A stretch of DNA of 32,438 nucleotides from NCBI GenBank assembly GCA_903844155.1, contig CAIMSU010000109.1:1-32438 (forward strand), in the 5' to 3' direction. Made by a program: the position numbers and the translations under genes. This document shows, piece after piece, positions 3,138-32,312 of this stretch. This stretch comes from an uncultured Pseudomonadota bacterium (GTDB lineage Bacteria > Myxococcota_A > UBA796 > SXON01). The notes under the pieces are model-generated. The model did not search any database and was not told the DNA's origin. It saw nothing but the letters and a program-made list of their open reading frames with translations. The first letter of the stretch is position 1. The number at the start of each line of letters is the position of its first letter.

Positions 3138-3743
3138 GTGCTCCTCCTGCTCACCGCGATCGTCCTCACTGCCTGCTCGCCACCGAGCACGCCGCCAACT
3201 GCGCACGGGCCGAGCGCGCCGATGGACCGGGCACCCGGTGGCACCACATCCTCGGCCGCCTACGCCGCGATCGTCAAGGAGGGCGGCGATCTCTACCTCC
3301 AGACCCCGACGACCACCCGTCTCATCGACACCGGCGTAGACCCGCGCGTGGCCATTTCCCCCGATGAACGCCAGCTCGTCTACGCGAAGCAGGGTTTTGT
3401 GCAGGAGACCGATCTCTGGACCGTTGCGCTGCCGGATGGGATCCCCACCCAACTCACGGACTGGCGCGGGTCCGAGGATCGCCCCACCTTCTCGCCCGAC
3501 GGCGCCCGCCTCGTCTTCGTCTCCGGGTTCACCGGCGTTGCATCGGTCTATGTCGTCGACCACCCGGGCACCGGCATCGTCGCCCGCGAGCACGCGCGCC
3601 AGGTGACCAACGCGAACCTTGGACCCAAGCGACCGGGCTTCGCGCCGAAGAACTTCGTCCCTCCCCCGACCGGCACCGACTACGCCTGGACCGGCGACAA
3701 CCTGACCTGGAACGCCGATGGTCTGCGGACGGTGACACCGTGA
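3138..3743 (+). CDS. PD40/TolB-like beta-propeller lipoprotein
   Basis: 201 residues starting at GTG. The signal peptide MLLLLTAIVLTAC has lipobox LTAC, so Cys13 would be lipidated. After a Pro-rich linker come propeller-type repeats with the PD40 signature: DPRVAISPDERQLVYAKQG and RPTFSPDGARLVFVSGF, then YAWTGDNLTWNADG. Only about three blades are present, fewer than a closed propeller, so it is either a truncated member or oligomerises. Its stop overlaps the GTG of the M23/MopE gene by 4 nt (GTGA, 3740-3743), indicating translational coupling with that protein. The specific ligand is unknown. Confidence 0.72.
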   Translation: MLLLLTAIVLTACSPPSTPPTAHGPSAPMDRAPGGTTSSAAYAAIVKEGGDLYLQTPTTTRLIDTGVDPRVAISPDERQLVYAKQGFVQETDLWTVALPDGIPTQLTDWRGSEDRPTFSPDGARLVFVSGFTGVASVYVVDHPGTGIVAREHARQVTNANLGPKRPGFAPKNFVPPPTGTDYAWTGDNLTWNADGLRTVTP

Positions 3744-5896
3744 TCGCGCTGCTCCTCGCGGTGATGCTCGGGTCGGACCATGCGCGCGCAACAACTTTCT
3801 CCATGCCCACCACGGCCGACTGGTACAGCACCTTCGTGGTTTCGGCCTATTATGACCATGGTGGGGTCACTGACTGGGACTGCGGATCCAACAGTTATTC
3901 CGGTCACCAAGGCACCGATTTTGCCATCTATGGCACGTGGACGACGATGGCGGAGGGCGTGGACATCGTTGCGGCGGCAGATGGCGTGGTCTATTCGACC
4001 AATGACGGTGAGCCGGACACCTGCACCAGCGGCGCCTGCGGGACAGCCAACTACGTGATCCTGCTACACGACGACGGCCACTACACGATCTACTGGCACA
4101 TGAAGACCTGGAGCGTTGCCGTCTCGCCCGGGCAGACCGTGAGCTGCGGCGAAAAGCTCGGCGAGGTCGGGTCGTCCGGCGATTCCACCGGACCGCACCT
4201 GCACTTTGAGCCGTTGCTCGGTGGCTCGACGGGCTTCGATCCGTTCGACGGACCGTGCAACAGCATCACGTCCTATTGGAATGAGCAGGGCAGCTACGAT
4301 GGGCTCCCCGGCATCACCTGCGCGGCTGCGGACACCGACGGCGACGGCTACACCGTCTCCGCGGGCGATTGCGACGACCACAACGCAGGCGTCCACCCCG
4401 GCGCCACCGAGTACTGCGACGGAATCGACAACAACTGCGACGGATCCATCGACGGTCCGGACTCCGTCGACGCAACCCAGTATTACGTGGATGCGGACGG
4501 CGACGGCTATGGGGACCCAAGCCAGCCCGTCAAGCTCTGCTACCCCACTGTCGGATATTCTCTGGACAACACCGACTGTAACGACAGCTACAACCTTGCC
4601 TATCCGGGTGCTTTCGAGCTGTGCGACGGCATCGACGACAACTGCGACGGCGTCATCGACGAGGGCTACGATCAGGACGCCGACGGGTATTCCACCTGTC
4701 AGGGCGACTGCGACGACACGGACCCTGCCGTGAACCCTGGTGCGCCCGAGATCGCCGACGGTGTCGACAACAACTGCAACTACAAGGTGGATGAGGGCAC
4801 GAGCGGCTACGACGACGACCGCGACGGCTGGACTGAGGACGCCGGTGACTGCGACGACGCCGACGCGTTCACCTACCCGGATGCCCCGGAGCTCCCAAAC
4901 TTCAAGGATGACGACTGCGACGGCGTCGTCGACGAGGGCACGACGCTCTACGACGATGACGGCGACGGTTTTTCTGAGGCCCAGGGCGACTGCGACGACG
5001 CCGACCCCGGCATTTACCCGGGCGCCACAGAGATCGCCGACAACCTTGATGGTAACTGCAACGGCGTGGTGGACGAGGGCACGCCAAACGCCGACGCGGA
5101 CGGCGACGGTTGGACCGGCGCCATGGGTGACTGCGACGACGCAAACATGTACGCCTTCCCCGGCGCGATCGAGGTCGTTGACGGCGCGGACAACGACTGT
5201 GACGGCATCGTCGACGACCACACGGAGGTCTACGACGACGACGGAGACGGGTTCTCTGAGGCTCAAGGCGACTGTGACGACGCGGTTGCGACCACGTACC
5301 CGCGCGCCACCGAACTCCCAAATGGCGTAGACGACGACTGCGATCACCTCGTGGACGAGGACACCGTGCTCTCGGACGACGATCATGACGGTTGGACCGA
5401 GCAAGCCGGCGATTGCAACGACGCCGACCCCCTCGCCTTCCCGGGCGCGGATGAGCGTGTGAACGGCCTCGACGATGACTGCGACGGCCGCATCGACAAC
5501 GGCACAACCGCCTTCGATGACGACGGGGACGGCTTTTCAGAGGAGCAAGGCGACTGCAACGACGCCGTCGCCACGATCTACCCGGACGCGCCCGAGGTGG
5601 TCGACGACATCGACCAGAACTGCAACGGCCTCATCGACGACCAGACGGACGTCTTTGACGACGACGGCGACGGCTGGACCGAGCAGCAGGGCGACTGCGA
5701 CGACATGAACGCCCAGATCCACCCCGGGGCGCTCGAGCAGACCAACGGCCGCGACGACAATTGCGACGGGGTCAGCGAGGCGCCCGAGGGGTGGTCGTGC
5801 GGGGCGATCCACGGAGGCGGCGACGGGCTCCTTCCCACCTTCGCGGGCCTGGGCTTGCTTGGGATCGGGTTGCGGCGGCGCAAACGTTCCCGCTGA
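3740..5896 (+). CDS. Secreted M23 metallopeptidase with ten MopE-type repeats and MYXO-CTERM-like tail
   Basis: 718 residues. An N-terminal signal peptide is followed by an M23 (LytM-type) domain, about 35-190, with zinc ligands His56 and Asp60 (GHQGTDF) and His155 (GPHLHFE); His120 fits the second catalytic His. From about residue 198 to 680 there are ten repeats of the pattern D-x-D-G-D-G, G-D-C-D-D, P-G-A-x-E, D-G-x-D-N-x-C-D-G-x-x-D-E, matching the Cu-binding MopE / putative metal-binding motif family; calcium or copper binding is plausible. The end WSCG, then a hydrophobic segment, then RRRKRSR resembles the MYXO-CTERM surface-sorting signal. The likely role is a surface-attached cell-wall endopeptidase stabilised by metal. 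It is coupled by overlap to the upstream lipoprotein. Repeats are diverged at DNA level, so recent duplication is unlikely. Confidence 0.9.
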   Translation: MIALLLAVMLGSDHARATTFSMPTTADWYSTFVVSAYYDHGGVTDWDCGSNSYSGHQGTDFAIYGTWTTMAEGVDIVAAADGVVYSTNDGEPDTCTSGACGTANYVILLHDDGHYTIYWHMKTWSVAVSPGQTVSCGEKLGEVGSSGDSTGPHLHFEPLLGGSTGFDPFDGPCNSITSYWNEQGSYDGLPGITCAAADTDGDGYTVSAGDCDDHNAGVHPGATEYCDGIDNNCDGSIDGPDSVDATQYYVDADGDGYGDPSQPVKLCYPTVGYSLDNTDCNDSYNLAYPGAFELCDGIDDNCDGVIDEGYDQDADGYSTCQGDCDDTDPAVNPGAPEIADGVDNNCNYKVDEGTSGYDDDRDGWTEDAGDCDDADAFTYPDAPELPNFKDDDCDGVVDEGTTLYDDDGDGFSEAQGDCDDADPGIYPGATEIADNLDGNCNGVVDEGTPNADADGDGWTGAMGDCDDANMYAFPGAIEVVDGADNDCDGIVDDHTEVYDDDGDGFSEAQGDCDDAVATTYPRATELPNGVDDDCDHLVDEDTVLSDDDHDGWTEQAGDCNDADPLAFPGADERVNGLDDDCDGRIDNGTTAFDDDGDGFSEEQGDCNDAVATIYPDAPEVVDDIDQNCNGLIDDQTDVFDDDGDGWTEQQGDCDDMNAQIHPGALEQTNGRDDNCDGVSEAPEGWSCGAIHGGGDGLLPTFAGLGLLGIGLRRRKRSR

Positions 5897-10474: not shown

Positions 10475-11260
10475 GTGAAGGTCGCGCTCGTACAACTCGA
10501 TCTCGCGTGGGAGGACCCCGCAGTCAACCGTCAGCGCGCGGAGCGGCGATTGCGCGAAGCGGCGGCGCTTGGAGCGCGGCTCGTGGTGCTGCCGGAGATG
10601 TTCACGTGCGGGTTTTCGATGCGCGCGACGGCCGAGGCGGAGGGTGGCGAGACCGAAGCGTGGATGGCCGAGGCGGCGGCCGGGATGGACCTGTGGATCC
10701 TCGCCGGCGTTCCGCAGCTCTCGGCGGAAGGACGGCAGAATCGGGCGGTGCTGATGTCGCCGACGGGCGCGGTGCAGCGGTATTCCAAGCTCCACCCCTT
10801 CTCGATGGCCGACGAGCACCACCACTACGCGCCGGGCAGCGAGACTGTGACCTGGGACGTGGAGGGGCTGCGCCTCACCCCCTTCATCTGCTACGACCTG
10901 CGTTTTCCCGAGGTGTTCCGGGCCACCGCGGCGCACACGGACCTGTACTGCGTCATCGCCAATTGGCCGGAGCGTCGGCGGGCGCACTGGCAGGCCCTGC
11001 TCCTCGCCCGCGCCATCGAGAACCAGGCGTTTGTCGCCGGGGTAAACCGGGTGGGCGACGGCGACGGGCTGCACTATGCGGGCGACAGCGCGCTGGTCTC
11101 GCCCTGGGGCGAGCGCATCGTGTCCGCCGCGGAGGCCGAAACCGTGGTCGTCGGCGAGGTTTCCAGGGAAGCCGTCGCCAACGCGCGCCTGACCTTCCCG
11201 GTCCTGAACGACCGCCGGCCGCCCGTCCCGCACCGAACCTCGTCAGATAGCCAGGGATGA
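10475..11260 (+). CDS. Carbon-nitrogen hydrolase, YafV-like omega-amidase
   Basis: 261 residues of the nitrilase superfamily. The catalytic triad is visible as Glu41 (VVLPEMFTCGF), Lys105 (YSKLHPF) and Cys139 (PFICYDLRFPE). The LPEMFTxGFSM and DEHHHYAPG segments and the length fit the YafV/Nit2-like omega-amidases, which hydrolyse 2-oxoglutaramate and 2-oxosuccinamate to free the methionine-salvage transaminase pathway of its by-product. Substrate is inferred from family resemblance. It starts at GTG, apparently leaderless, and its last 4 nt overlap the start of the RNA methyltransferase gene (ATGA), so the pair is co-translated. Confidence 0.87.
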   Translation: MKVALVQLDLAWEDPAVNRQRAERRLREAAALGARLVVLPEMFTCGFSMRATAEAEGGETEAWMAEAAAGMDLWILAGVPQLSAEGRQNRAVLMSPTGAVQRYSKLHPFSMADEHHHYAPGSETVTWDVEGLRLTPFICYDLRFPEVFRATAAHTDLYCVIANWPERRRAHWQALLLARAIENQAFVAGVNRVGDGDGLHYAGDSALVSPWGERIVSAAEAETVVVGEVSREAVANARLTFPVLNDRRPPVPHRTSSDSQG

Positions 11261-12738
11261 AGCACCACAAGCATCGCACGCCGCGCGAGGTGGTCATCGA
11301 CCGGATCGACGCGAAAGGGCGGGGTGAGGGTAAGGATGAGGGCGGGCGAAGCTGGGCTATCCGCGGTGCGCCGGTGGGAGCGACGGTCCTGGCAGCAGGC
11401 CGCAATTTTGACGGCGTGCGGCTGGCGACGGTGCGGCCGGCCGACGACGCCGTCAGCCCGCCGTGCCCGGTTTTCGGTGTTTGCGGCGGGTGCCAGTGGC
11501 AGGAGATGCCGGTCGGGCGGCAGCGCGAGGAGAAGGCGCGGATGCTGGGACGGATGCTCGGCGAGCTAGCCGGGACGGACCACGGCATGCTTCACGCCGG
11601 GCCCGAGTACGGCTACCGCAACAAGATCGAGTTGACGTTCGGCACGGCCCGGTACCTGCTCGCGGACGAATTGAACACGGAGATCGGCCGGATTGGCCGC
11701 TGGCTCGGCTTTCACGCCCCCGGACGGTACGACCGGATCGTCGACGCGCCCGCGTGCGCCCTCGCCTCGCCCGCGATCAACGCCGTGTACCAGCGCATTC
11801 GCGCCGACATCATGGCTTCTGACCTGCCCTTCTGGGACGCCGACGCCCACATCGGCTTCTTCCGCAACCTCGTCCTCCGCTCCGGCGACCTATCAAAAGC
11901 GACGACGTCGCTTTTGATACATCCCCAGGGGCAGGTCCTCGTTGCGGTCTACACGGCACCGGGCGACGACGCGCAGGCGGCGTGGCTGCGGGAAAAGGCG
12001 CCGCGCTGGGGCGCGACATGCGTTGGCTGGTTCGAGAACGCCGGGCCAGCCGACGCCGTCGGCGGGGAGCTGCGTGAGGTGCTCGTCGGCGGAGAGCTGG
12101 CGATCACCGACGGTATCTCGGGGCTGGTGTTCCGACTGTCGCCGACCGCGTTCTTCCAGGCCAACGCCATCGCCGCGGAGGAGATGGTGCGGGTTGTCCG
12201 GGAGTACCTGGCCCTGGACCGACCGAGCTCGTCGGATTCGCGCCCAACCGTGCTCTGGGATCTGTACTGCGGCGCGGGCCTGCTCGGCCTGGCCTGCGCC
12301 GCGTCGTTCGACGAGGTCGTCGGCATCGAGACCGTCGCAGCCGCCGTCGCGGACGCTGAAGCCAACGCCGTTGCCAACGCCGTCCACAACGCCAGGTTCG
12401 TCGCCGGCAACGTCGAACACCTGGTCGCCGATCTCCTCGCCACCACCCCGCCGGACGCCGTCATCGTCGACCCGCCGCGCAACGGCCTGCACCCCGACGC
12501 CCTCGCCGTCCTCACCCGCCTCGCCCGCCCCTCGACGGGCCACGCGCCTCCCGTCCTCGTCTACGTGGCGTGCAAGCCCACGTCGCTCCTCCGCGACGGC
12601 CGGGCGCTGATCGCCGCGGGCTGGACGTGCACGGACCGCGTCGCCATCGACCTTTTCCCGCAGACCGCGCACGTGGAGGTCGTGAGCCGCTGGATTGTCA
12701 ATCGCTCAATCACGCCGGTCGGACCGCCGTCACCCTGA
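11257..12738 (+). CDS. 23S rRNA/tRNA m5U methyltransferase (RlmD/TrmA family) with in-frame palindrome insertion
   Basis: 493 residues. An N-terminal OB/TRAM-like region (about 10-65) is followed by a four-cysteine iron-sulfur site (Cys70, Cys76, Cys79, Cys167), a Rossmann methyltransferase core (LWDLYCGAGLLGLA, about 333-347), VDPPRNG (404-410) and nucleophile Cys439 in YVACKP; AFFQAN (about 298-303) is also typical. It would methylate C5 of a uridine in rRNA or tRNA; which site cannot be told. Residues 211-224 (DLSKATTSLLIHPQ) interrupt a region that in the family normally runs straight from the LR-x-G turn into the next strand, and are encoded by a 29-bp palindrome also found in the CoA-transferase gene. 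The 3' end overlaps the convergent 68-aa gene by 29 nt. Confidence 0.9.
   Translation: MKHHKHRTPREVVIDRIDAKGRGEGKDEGGRSWAIRGAPVGATVLAAGRNFDGVRLATVRPADDAVSPPCPVFGVCGGCQWQEMPVGRQREEKARMLGRMLGELAGTDHGMLHAGPEYGYRNKIELTFGTARYLLADELNTEIGRIGRWLGFHAPGRYDRIVDAPACALASPAINAVYQRIRADIMASDLPFWDADAHIGFFRNLVLRSGDLSKATTSLLIHPQGQVLVAVYTAPGDDAQAAWLREKAPRWGATCVGWFENAGPADAVGGELREVLVGGELAITDGISGLVFRLSPTAFFQANAIAAEEMVRVVREYLALDRPSSSDSRPTVLWDLYCGAGLLGLACAASFDEVVGIETVAAAVADAEANAVANAVHNARFVAGNVEHLVADLLATTPPDAVIVDPPRNGLHPDALAVLTRLARPSTGHAPPVLVYVACKPTSLLRDGRALIAAGWTCTDRVAIDLFPQTAHVEVVSRWIVNRSITPVGPPSP
11891..11919 (+). repeat. In-frame palindromic element, copy A
   Basis: A perfect inverted repeat with 14-nt arms (11891-11904 and 11906-11919) around a single A at 11905. 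The left arm is TATCAAAAGCGACG. It lies wholly inside the RNA methyltransferase gene and is translated as part of GDLSKATTSLLIHP. The copy at 15565-15593 has 28 of 29 identical bases and is read in the same phase in another gene. Shared flanks (GGCGAC before, ATCC after) suggest a full unit of about 42 bp, that is 14 codons. Confidence 0.85.
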
Positions 12739-14850: not shown

Positions 14851-15996
14851 TTACGGGGACGCCAGGCCGCCCAGCTCCGCGATCACCTCGGCAGTGTGCT
14901 CACCAAGCGCGGGCGGGGGACGAAACGCGACCATCGGGAGCGGCGGGGCGGGAAATGTCCATGGACCAAGCTGCGTCGTCCGCGCGAGGGGGTGCGCGAG
15001 CGACTGCTCCACCGACAACGCCGCGCCGCACGGCACGCCTGCTGCGGCAAGGCGCGCGTCCCAGACGGCCACGGCATCGCTGGCGAGGACGGTTTCAATC
15101 GCGGCGTCCAGCCGGGAGCGGTCGGCGACACGCTGGGGGAGCGACGCCCACGCGGGATCGCGCGGAAGGTCGAGGGACGAACGCAGCTTTTCCCATAAGC
15201 CGTCGTTCGCACAGCAGATCGCGAGCCAGCCGTCGCGGCAACGATAGAGGTTGTAGGGGGCGATGGACGGGTGCGCGTTGGAGGGCAGCGGCGGCGAGAC
15301 ACCCGCGTTCAACCAGGCAGATGCGTAGTAGGCAAGGAGGTGGTGCTGGACATCCAGCATCGAGATCACGCGCCGACAGCCCAGACCCGTGCGCGCCCGG
15401 TCCAGAAGCCCGAAGAGCACCGCCTGCACGGCCACCTGCGCGCTCGCCAGGTCGGCGATGCTCGGCCCGGCCTTCCGCGGCGGATCCCCGGTCAACGCCG
15501 CGATCCCGCCCACGCTCTGGAGCACGAGGTCGTACCCCGCCCGCCCTGCCCACCCGTCCGGATCTATCAAAAGTGACGACGTCGCTTTTGATACGTCGCC
15601 GAATGCATGGATCGCCACCGAGACCAGCCCCGGGTTTTCCCGGCGAAGCTCCTCGTCTCCGAGCCCGAGGCGCTCCATCACCCCCGCGCGGAAGTTCTCG
15701 ACGACGACGTCGGCGGTCCGCACCAGCCGGCGCGCGAGGTCGAGCCCCTCGGCGGTCTTCAGATCGAGGACGATCGACCGCTTGTTTCGGTTGGTACAGG
15801 CGAAGTAGACGCTCATCCGCTCACCCGGTTCGCCGCCCGGCCCCGTCGCCATGATCGGCAGGAACCGCCGCGTCTCGTCGCCCTCCGGCGCCTCCACCTT
15901 GATCACGTCAAAGCCCTGATCCCCGAGGATCTGCGTCGCCCAGGGCCCGGCCAGCACGCGCGTGAAGTCAATGACGCGGAAAGGCCGACTGGTCAT
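14851..15996 (-). CDS. CaiB/BaiF family (type III) CoA-transferase with in-frame palindrome insertion
   Basis: 381 residues. Family features are RVIDFTRVLAGPWATQILGDQGFDVIKVE at the N terminus, TNRNKRSIVLDLK, ADVVVENFRAGVMERLG, and GPSIADLASAQ, whose Asp182 is the expected catalytic Asp that forms the acyl intermediate. It transfers CoA between carboxylic acids; the substrate pair is not predictable. Residues 134-147 (DVSKATSSLLIDPD) split the usually continuous FG to GRAGYD segment and are encoded by the palindrome at 15565-15593. Its start overlaps the ABC ATPase stop by 4 nt, making it the last gene of a four-gene unit; why an acyl-CoA enzyme travels with this exporter is unclear. Confidence 0.88.
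   Translation of the reverse strand: MTSRPFRVIDFTRVLAGPWATQILGDQGFDVIKVEAPEGDETRRFLPIMATGPGGEPGERMSVYFACTNRNKRSIVLDLKTAEGLDLARRLVRTADVVVENFRAGVMERLGLGDEELRRENPGLVSVAIHAFGDVSKATSSLLIDPDGWAGRAGYDLVLQSVGGIAALTGDPPRKAGPSIADLASAQVAVQAVLFGLLDRARTGLGCRRVISMLDVQHHLLAYYASAWLNAGVSPPLPSNAHPSIAPYNLYRCRDGWLAICCANDGLWEKLRSSLDLPRDPAWASLPQRVADRSRLDAAIETVLASDAVAVWDARLAAAGVPCGAALSVEQSLAHPLARTTQLGPWTFPAPPLPMVAFRPPPALGEHTAEVIAELGGLASP
15565..15593 (-). repeat. In-frame palindromic element, copy B
   Basis: A 29-nt inverted repeat with 14-nt arms, one mismatched pair and one central base, 28/29 identical to the copy at 11891-11919. On the coding (minus) strand it is read as part of GDVSKATSSLLIDP. Of its frames, one contains a stop (TGA), and both copies use the same stop-free frame. 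Confidence 0.85.
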
Positions 15997-16910
15997 CCCG
16001 GGCCCGACGTGTCCGCCAGCACCCGCGCTTCGAGCGATGATCCCTGTCGAACCTCCACGACCCGCGCGCCGACGGCGAGCAGCTCCGCCAGCCGGGCAGA
16101 CGTCGCCTCGGGCAACGAGCGGGGGTCGTCCGCGACCAGCCGCAGCAGCACCGTCCCCGGTCGCCCGTCCACGAACGCCACGCCCACCGGAAACGGCGGC
16201 GCCAGCGTGATCGTCACCTCCCGGTCAGCGCCCGTCACCGCCGCCATCTCGCCCTCGCGCACGCACCGCCCGTGGTCGATCACGACGACGCGATCGCACA
16301 GCGACTCCAATTCCGCGAGGTTGTGGCTGCTCACCAGCACGGTCGTCCGCCCACGCAACGACGCCAACGACTCGCGCAGGTGCCTGGCCTGCGCCGGATC
16401 GAGCCCGCTCGTCGGCTCATCGAGAAGCACGAACGCCGGATCCCCAACGAGCGCCGAGGCGACGGTCACCCGCCTGCGCATGCCGTGCGAGAGCGTGCTG
16501 ATGCGCGCGTCCGCGCGATCCCCGAGCAACACCGACGCGAGCACGCTGTCAACGGCGTCGCCGATCCGCGCGCCGGGAATGCCCTGAAGCCGGCCCCAGA
16601 CCGTCAGCAACTGCCGCGGGGTGCTCGCCAGCGGTAATTCGGCGTCCTGCGGCAGGATTCCGACGCGGCCAGCGTGCCGTACAGGGTCAAACGGACCCAT
16701 TCCGAGGAGGTCGACTGTACCGCCGTCGGCCTGCAGGTAGCCGGCGATGATCGACATCGTCGTGGTCTTGCCCGCGCCGTTCGGACCGATCAACCCGCAG
16801 ATGCTGCCTTCGGGCACGGAAAAAGCGAGCGCGTCCAACGCCTGGTGCCGGCCAAAGCGCTTCATCAGACCAACGATGCTGAGCGCCGTCCCGGACGCCG
16901 GCCCGTTCAC
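15993..16910 (-). CDS. ABC transporter ATP-binding protein
   Basis: 305 residues. Walker A is GPNGAGKTT (about 42-50), signature LSHGMRRRVTVASAL, Walker B FVLLDEPTSGLDP and switch His in VLVSSHNLAELE. The ATPase domain is about 1-215; the C-terminal 90 residues (after EGEMAAVTGADREVTITLAP) are a divergent extension of the kind seen in ABC-2 type exporters of the drug, gliding or Nos subfamilies. It energises the permease encoded just upstream; its first codon overlaps the permease stop by 4 nt. Substrate unknown. Confidence 0.92.
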   Translation of the reverse strand: MNGPASGTALSIVGLMKRFGRHQALDALAFSVPEGSICGLIGPNGAGKTTTMSIIAGYLQADGGTVDLLGMGPFDPVRHAGRVGILPQDAELPLASTPRQLLTVWGRLQGIPGARIGDAVDSVLASVLLGDRADARISTLSHGMRRRVTVASALVGDPAFVLLDEPTSGLDPAQARHLRESLASLRGRTTVLVSSHNLAELESLCDRVVVIDHGRCVREGEMAAVTGADREVTITLAPPFPVGVAFVDGRPGTVLLRLVADDPRSLPEATSARLAELLAVGARVVEVRQGSSLEARVLADTSGPG

Positions 16911-18612: not shown

Positions 18613-18755
18613 TGGGCGGCTCGCTCCGAGGGGGCCGCATACGAAAACGGACGACGTCACTTTTGGCACATCGGAATGTGCCAAAAGCTGACATCGTCCG
18701 TTTGCGTACGCGGCCCACGCCGATCCAGAATCCATATGGAACGCCGCGTTGCCCC
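18613..18755. repeat. Dispersed repeat, copy 1, interrupted by a large hairpin
   Basis: The left end TGGGCGGCTCGCTCC (18613-18627) is identical to 32106-32120, and the right end (18733-18755, containing GGAACGCCGCG) matches 32143-32165 at 19 of 23 positions. In copy 2 the two ends are 22 nt apart; here they are 105 nt apart, with the 85-nt hairpin 18632-18716 in between. The two ends are roughly inverted with respect to each other (GGGCGGC versus GCCGCCC in copy 2), as in small non-autonomous elements. Confidence 0.6.
18632..18716. repeat. 85-nt near-perfect hairpin related to the in-frame palindromes
   Basis: Arms 18632-18671 and 18676-18716 are complementary except for three mismatches and one bulged base, around a 4-nt loop CGGA. 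It contains the 16-nt core CAAAAGTGACGTCGTC on the minus strand, differing from the core of the in-frame palindromes by one base. Read on the minus strand in the same phase it would give DVPKVTSSVFV, comparable with DVSKATSSLLI in the CoA-transferase. Here it is intergenic. There is no T-run, so it is not a typical terminator. Confidence 0.8.
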
Positions 18756-30980: not shown

Positions 30981-32075
30981 ATGGCCCGCAGACCCCTGAT
31001 CGCCGCCACGGCGCTGCTCGCCTTTCTGGCAGCCGGTCATGCCCAGGCCGCCGACGGTCGCCGCATCGCGCTCGTCATCGGCATCTCCGACTACGAGCAC
31101 CTCCCCCCGACGGCGAGGGTCGACAATGCCAGGTCCGAAGCCGCGGATCTGCAACGCGTGTTGGAGCAGAGCGGCGGCTACTCGGAGGTGCGCCTCCTGA
31201 CCGACGCATCCGCCACCCTCGCGAACCTGCAGACCGCGCTCAAGGACCAGGCCGCGGCCGAGGCCGGCGTGAACGACACGTTCCTCCTGTATTTTGTCGG
31301 TGAGGGGGTTGGCGCGGACTACGGTGATCCGCGCATCCTCCTCTACGACAGCGACCCGGACGCCCTCGAGGCCACCTCGATGTCCATCGCCGATCTCGAT
31401 GGCTACATCGAGAAGTACGTGCATTGCAAGGGCTACAGCGTCGTCCTCGACGCCGCGCACGAGGGCTCCCTCAACAAGCTCGCGCTCCTTGGCCCGACCG
31501 GCGACCAGTGGCCCGGAAAAGGTCGGTCCGACTTCGTTGTTTCGGCTGCAGGCCCGCACCAGGCCGGGAAGCCCGGCGTGTTCGCCGGCGCCTTCCTCGA
31601 CGGCATCGCCGGACGTGCCGACTCCAACAGCGATGGGACAGTCACGGCGTCCGAGCTCAACAACTACCTGGTCAAGATGGTGCCCGCAGCCAGCGGCGGC
31701 GCGCAGACGCCCACCGTCGTCGCCAGCTATGACCCCACCCTCGTCCTCGCGGTGGCCCCACCGAAGGTCGCGGTCGTGGAACCGACCAGCCCGACCGCGC
31801 CGACGCCGACCCCCACAGTCGCCCACGGCCGCGTCGACAAGGCAAAGTTCGTGTTTCAAGGCGGCACACACCAGACCGTGTCCTGTGCTGGGGCCGCACC
31901 CGTGGCCTGCGATCCCGCCTGCTACGTCTGGGACGTCCCGGCTGGCGACTGCACCGTGAACATGACGGTTGGCGGCCAGGATCTCACCGGCACCATCGCC
32001 GTGCTCTACCGCGGGGCGTACGCCTGCGGGGGCTTCGAAGGTGGCCTGCGCTGCTCCAGCCCCCCGCCGCCATAG
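30981..32075 (+). CDS. Secreted caspase-fold (peptidase C14-like) protein without catalytic residues
   Basis: 364 residues. The signal peptide MARRPLIAATALLAFLAAGHAQAA precedes a caspase-like domain (about 26-240): RRIALVIGISDYEHLPPTARVDNARSEAADLQRVL is the classic start, LLYFVGEG replaces the usual YFSGHG so the catalytic His is Glu108, and VLDAAHEG replaces DACHSG so the nucleophile Cys is Ala159. The C-terminal 110 residues follow a Pro/Thr linker and contain six Cys, possibly three disulfides, in a beta-rich domain. It cannot be an active cysteine peptidase and may be a decoy, inhibitor or binding protein. Divergent from the FG-GAP surface protein gene. Confidence 0.85.
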   Translation: MARRPLIAATALLAFLAAGHAQAADGRRIALVIGISDYEHLPPTARVDNARSEAADLQRVLEQSGGYSEVRLLTDASATLANLQTALKDQAAAEAGVNDTFLLYFVGEGVGADYGDPRILLYDSDPDALEATSMSIADLDGYIEKYVHCKGYSVVLDAAHEGSLNKLALLGPTGDQWPGKGRSDFVVSAAGPHQAGKPGVFAGAFLDGIAGRADSNSDGTVTASELNNYLVKMVPAASGGAQTPTVVASYDPTLVLAVAPPKVAVVEPTSPTAPTPTPTVAHGRVDKAKFVFQGGTHQTVSCAGAAPVACDPACYVWDVPAGDCTVNMTVGGQDLTGTIAVLYRGAYACGGFEGGLRCSSPPPP

Positions 32076-32214: not shown

Positions 32215-32312
32215 GGCAGGCCGTGCCGCGCTGGTGCAGGCCCCGGTCTTCAAAACCGGTCGGGGCGTCCCGGAAGGAGGCGCCCGGTGAGTTCGATTCT
32301 CATGGCCTGCCG
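32215..32312 (+). tRNA. selC: Selenocysteine tRNA, anticodon TCA
   Basis: A 98-nt tRNA with all marks of bacterial tRNA-Sec. The 8-bp acceptor stem pairs GGCAGGCC (32215-32222) with GGCCTGCC (32304-32311), with discriminator G32312. The anticodon arm is CCGGT-CTTCAAA-ACCGG with TCA at 32250-32252. The extra arm (about 32263-32287) is long, with a stem of about 7 bp. The T arm is GTGAG-TTCGATT-CTCAT. The D stem can be drawn as five pairs with one bulged A. The 3' CCA is not encoded (CCCA follows), so it must be added. It reads UGA as Sec together with SelB and a SECIS element; selA, selB, selD and any obvious selenoprotein lie outside the window. Confidence 0.95.

Follow-up and report, generated by a model that had tools for sequence, protein, structure and literature searches.

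Features of the analysed window

The window, i.e. the whole stretch of DNA that was analysed, comprises 32,438 nucleotides and equals the whole contig C109 of the draft genome (G000). Two unrelated enzyme genes, encoded on opposite strands, each contain a copy of the same short palindrome (Table 1). The 29-bp core of copy 1, TATCAAAAGCGACGACGTCGCTTTTGATA, is a perfect palindrome centred on A, and the core of copy 2 is identical to it at 28 of 29 positions with one mismatch; positions and identity had been given correctly in the initial annotation. In 100 shuffles of the window the number of matches to the 29-bp palindrome at up to 3 mismatches was 0. A third copy consists of two inverted units, for which an RNA fold of −49.3 kcal/mol (z −8.9) was predicted. 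The mobile unit had initially been estimated at about 42 bp including the flanks GGCGAC and ATCC. The conserved unit is instead about 35 bp long (AYV-29mer-YRT), and the GGCGAC...ATCC flanks, common to both window copies, were not seen in other copies. Elsewhere in the window, an ORF with ten MopE-type repeats is located, which probably explain the 141-bp DNA repeats.

Table 1. Positions of genes, palindrome copies and further features in the window.
Feature	Position	Strand	Description
M23 peptidase domain ORF	3740-5896		718 aa; ten MopE-type putative metal-binding repeats
23S rRNA uracil-C5-methyltransferase, RlmD-like (host gene 1)	11257..12738	+	493 aa; TIGR00479, E 7e-60, above cut-off
Palindrome copy 1	11888..11922 (29-bp core 11891-11919)	+	single 35-bp unit inside the RlmD-like gene, read as SKATTSLLI
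Family III CoA-transferase (host gene 2)	14851..15996	-	381 aa; PF02515, E 7e-94
Palindrome copy 2	15562..15596 (29-bp core 15565-15593)	+	single 35-bp unit inside the CoA-transferase gene, minus-strand reading SKATSSLLI
Third palindrome copy	18640..18708	.	two inverted units 40 bp apart; one long hairpin between divergent genes
Caspase-like (Peptidase_C14) domain ORF	30981-32075		
Selenocysteine tRNA gene	32215-32311		Rfam tRNA-Sec, 65.6 bits

Copy number, structure and distribution of the repeat

In the genome (8.13 Mb, 375 contigs) the exact core AAAANNGACGACGTCNNTTTT was found 114 times and the reversed pattern, used as control, 0 times. At up to 3 mismatches, at least 135 units were located at 89 sites within 1.18 Mb of examined sequence, which comprised the surroundings of the copies and a few other contigs; the counts are approximate, as the draft consists of 375 contigs. 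Further copies, whose genome-wide absence had been named in the initial annotation as an argument for coincidence, are thus abundant. The sites comprised 44 single units, 44 doublets and one triplet. The doublets had either a period of 31 bp (24 of 44) or a spacing of 39-47 bp (20, with exactly 40 bp in 15 of them).

The consensus of the single unit, about 35 bp in length, is AYV-TATS-AAAA-NN-GACGACGTC-NN-TTTT-SATA-YRT. The core GACGACGTC is nearly invariant and the palindrome near-perfect, but the two NN positions usually form a mismatch between the arms (of 132 units, 77 showed C-C and 61 C-A). Copy 1 of the window, which is fully paired, is a variant of this usually mismatched unit. The predicted folds of single units ranged from −12.9 to −18.5 kcal/mol and are strong hairpins with U runs. 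At many single units (L113-L180) a C-rich run was observed to the left and a G-rich run to the right, possibly reflecting a target preference or older hairpins.

The family is private to this genome within the material compared: none of 57 relatives, which include four congeners, contained the exact core. When about 85,000 named genomes were scanned, the matches listed were almost all scattered single ones, which were taken as background, apart from at least one other family, in Omnitrophota. No match to the core pattern was present in viral contigs, neither the doublet nor the RAYT described below was matched in plasmids, and no Rfam family covered the palindromic element. A CRISPR-like array was rejected because the copies are dispersed rather than arrayed, and an assembly artefact because the copies vary in sequence and homologues without them exist. 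Five contigs (C73, C201, C213, C293 and C335) terminate in a palindrome copy or only a few bases away from one, which suggests that the hairpins break the assembly.

A RAYT-like transposase gene flanked by the repeat

A match to PF01797 (Y1_Tnp) was located at G000:C268:23798-24133, exactly between two palindrome doublets (L158:15694-15753 and 16591-16650), which are mutually inverted (left A,A; right T,T) and of which the right one overlaps the stop codon of the gene. The 265-aa product carries the HUH motif HLHVL and the tyrosine motif YIHANVNPRA. Its best NCBIfam match was NF047646, REP-associated tyrosine transposase (E 3.8e-10), with a score of 39.8 bits below the cut-off of 80; its Pfam Y1_Tnp score of 27.3 lies just above the cut-off of 23. 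A sequence comparison with solved structures gave no match for the RAYT. One such RAYT-like Y1 HUH gene with the repeat on both sides was found in the genome. An insertion sequence of the IS200/IS605 type was rejected, as the flanked gene is RAYT-like and accompanied by dispersed repeats. A second, weak Y1_Tnp match (L326, G000:C113:46399-46722) has no copy of the palindrome nearby; a 31-bp hairpin, CTACCACAAGTGC...GTTGTGGTAG, lies close to it.

Position of the repeat relative to genes

Genes were called with a simple self-trained predictor and the fetched sequence served as background, so that the site classes are approximate. Among the 70 intergenic sites for which both neighbours were available, 43 are located no more than 30 bp behind a stop codon, where 15.9% would be expected (p 9e-18), and at 12 sites the stop codon adjoins the element or is part of it. 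Convergent gaps were enriched (25/70 vs 16.7% expected, p 1.4e-4), while divergent gaps were depleted (12/70 vs 38.4% expected, p 1.8e-4).

This strong placement after stop codons and between convergent genes, together with the U-run hairpins and their predicted stabilities, would also be expected of a dispersed bidirectional terminator or mRNA 3′-end hairpin that is kept for its function and is not primarily mobile. However, the four congeners have the same need for terminators and lack the core, and the palindrome also occurs within open reading frames and flanks a transposase gene, making a primary role of this kind very unlikely. A secondary role as terminator or mRNA 3′-end structure is plausible, as the folding predictions support stable hairpins. 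A binding site for a nucleoid or regulatory DNA-binding protein, spread by selection, would agree with the near-perfect palindrome and its nearly invariant core, but is extremely improbable given the avoidance of promoter-bearing divergent gaps, the absence of the core from the congeners, the doublets of fixed 31-bp or 40-bp period and the inverted copies around the RAYT gene.

In-frame copies within genes

In the four congeners, the orthologues of the RlmD-like protein (66-70% identity) and of the CoA-transferase (80-83% identity) carry no insert, and the solved homologues of both window proteins show a gap at its position. The methyltransferase has a net gain of 12 residues relative to three congeners and of 7 relative to G002, the CoA-transferase of 9 to 10 residues relative to the congeners. 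The initial annotation had assigned about 13 added residues to a short turn; the short, variable loop was recognized in the homologues, while the gain is smaller than this figure. The other eleven host genes were likewise aligned with homologues and a clear added block was visible in most; for an RND gene (L174) the insert-free comparison was a paralogue from the same genome. Altogether, the insert is missing from orthologues or a paralogue for all 13 genic sites, with caution being due for L143 and L165, whose alignments are loose and show no clean added block. At L151 and L165 the insert is located at the C-terminus. The insert residues are therefore not carried by homologues, as a reading as ancestral loops would need, and the initial description of a mobile-looking palindromic element residing in frame in unrelated genes was borne out by the insert-free homologues and the many further copies in the genome. 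The alignments, from which exact insertion boundaries and a target duplication had been hoped for, allowed neither to be fixed. The 13 in-frame insertions with their insert-free homologues provide a measure of the tolerance of enzymes to small hairpin insertions.

The 17 units in these 13 genes are read in the two open frames at a ratio of 8:8, and one unit, a variant without stop, is read in the third frame. This split is as predicted by the removal of broken genes, and the frame pattern may be due to selection. That both window copies are read in the same phase had been seen correctly in the initial annotation; it is a coincidence of two copies and carries no weight, since both open frames are used equally overall.

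The initial annotation had pointed to behaviour known from RPEs and to a possible selfish element. The inserts of about 10-25 residues, which occur in frame in 13 unrelated predicted genes and are missing from their homologues, would fit an RPE-like selfish element that is specialised for in-frame entry into genes and has no transposase of its own. But predicted genes, which make up 91% of the sequence examined, hold 13 of the 89 sites, or about one in seven; the usual place is intergenic, behind stop codons; the frames are distributed as expected if only broken frames were removed; and the RAYT gene has the repeat on both flanks. The intergenic majority and the flanked RAYT largely refute this explanation, which is regarded as most improbable; neither the identification as a Rickettsia palindromic element nor specific targeting of genes was upheld. 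The genic copies resemble insertions that happened to survive more than the outcome of a strategy.

Proposed spread of the repeat

It is highly probable that the palindrome belongs to the RAYT-type repeats and is non-autonomous, having probably been copied around the genome by the RAYT-like Y1 transposase that it flanks. The palindrome-flanked RAYTs of other genomes described below, above all that of the congener G002 with its private repeat, agree with this reading. According to the literature, TnpA-REP cleaves REP hairpins in single-stranded form, and a given RAYT is usually paired with a repeat of its own (PMC8266576, PMC6006769). By analogy, the repeat, present as an imperfect hairpin of about 35 bp in single units or doublets, would be bound by the putative mobiliser encoded on contig C268 while the DNA is single-stranded, e.g. 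during replication; the transposase would then cut beside the hairpin and join it to a new place. Copies disrupting genes would be lost, so that the remaining copies would be found mainly directly behind stop codons, and a genic minority would persist where the frame is kept, stops are avoided and the site is a variable loop or the C-terminus. The mobility of the palindrome itself is deduced from the comparison of sequences.

Comparison with known repeat families

Di Nocera et al. 2013 (PMC3733652) described TIRtrons as RAYTs flanked by non-GTAG inverted repeats, and also reported self-complementary TIR families in dimers, REPs at gene 3′ ends and, separately, in-frame intragenic REPs such as RPE-4/6. 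Among the RAYT-linked repeats described there, the present family is a new member. It combines a RAYT-like Y1 HUH gene that lies between copies of the repeat with a dispersed high-copy palindrome, single or in dimers, located mostly in intergenic regions at gene 3′ ends, which are the broad features of REPtrons and TIRtrons. It resembles TIRtrons/TIRYTs in that the RAYT-type gene lies between inverted repeats unrelated to GTAG REPs, and in that some TIRs are self-complementary, dispersed and found in dimers or clusters. In contrast, the GGGGWSAS motif, common to some TIRs, is missing from the palindrome, and the family comprises at least 135 units and occupies 13 genic sites, in a lineage outside the cited study; the GGGGTCAG of the congener G002 does fit this motif.

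With GTAG REPs, BIMEs and REPINs the family shares imperfect palindromes of 20-40 nt in more than 100 copies, inverted dimers, the flanking of a RAYT and the location behind genes, between co-directional and convergent ORFs; the mismatched pair of positions within the stem is also known from E. coli REPs. However, the foot of the hairpin lacks the conserved GTAG/GGAG tetranucleotide: the base following TA in 39 single units was T in 32, C in 6 and G in 1, and no conserved guide tetranucleotide of the GTAG type was found beside the hairpin. RPE-4 and RPE-6, which are CGTC REPs, are likewise short palindromes in frame in unrelated genes, and CGTC is contained within the core; in-frame insertion in unrelated genes, as in RPEs, is seen here at a minority of the sites. 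In the single unit of the present repeat, CGTC lies centrally and is base-paired within the stem, whereas it is an unpaired end tag in CGTC REPs. The stem, loop and tail also differ from those described for CGTC-1 to -4, the CGTC REPs having a stem of 8-9 bp, a loop of 4-5 nt and a CCA tail. Moreover, a RAYT is flanked here, while none has been reported for CGTC REPs. Because the end tags were not recovered, the family was filed under neither the GTAG nor the CGTC superfamily nor the RPEs.

Palindrome-flanked RAYTs in an Omnitrophota genome and in relatives of the analysed bacterium

The Candidatus Omnitrophota STD1_183 MAG (G058) contains a palindrome family, AGTTGACAAAAGAGACGACGTCTCTTTTGTCAACT, with the same core in different arms (L088, L053, L071, L089 and L104), and an Omnitrophota RAYT on its contig C74 sits between two core-sharing palindromes. 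The RAYTs of the two genomes share no more than 28% identity over 114 aa and neither is the best match of the other, so that the core is not necessarily shared by descent. Should the common core be beyond coincidence, it bears on the question which transposase, if any, spreads CGTC-type repeats. It is conceivable, though rather unlikely, that the GACG-A-CGTC core, which occurs in palindromes around distantly related RAYTs in two phyla, is a recognised signal and that these repeats represent REPs of the CGTC type that possess a transposase of their own; CGTC is located at the foot of a hairpin only in doublets, where this hairpin forms between the two units. CGTC REPs, including the Rickettsia RPE-4/6, would thereby gain the dedicated enzyme that they have been reported to lack.

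Among the congeners, both the repeat of G000 and Y1_Tnp matches were missing from G001, G003 and G004. In G002 (L199, G002:C206:65791-66842) a different RAYT, 26% identical to the C268 RAYT over 160 aa, has on either side a copy of a further palindrome, GTCAGGTTGTTACCATTACAC..., which is about 60 bp long, forms about 40 inverted pairs in that genome and was absent from 23 other genomes. Since one species has a private RAYT-linked repeat and its congener carries another RAYT with another palindrome, it becomes directly testable how enzyme and repeat are paired. The RAYTs of G014 and G028 are likewise flanked by palindromes, the palindrome of G014 occurring in three copies at relaxed match.
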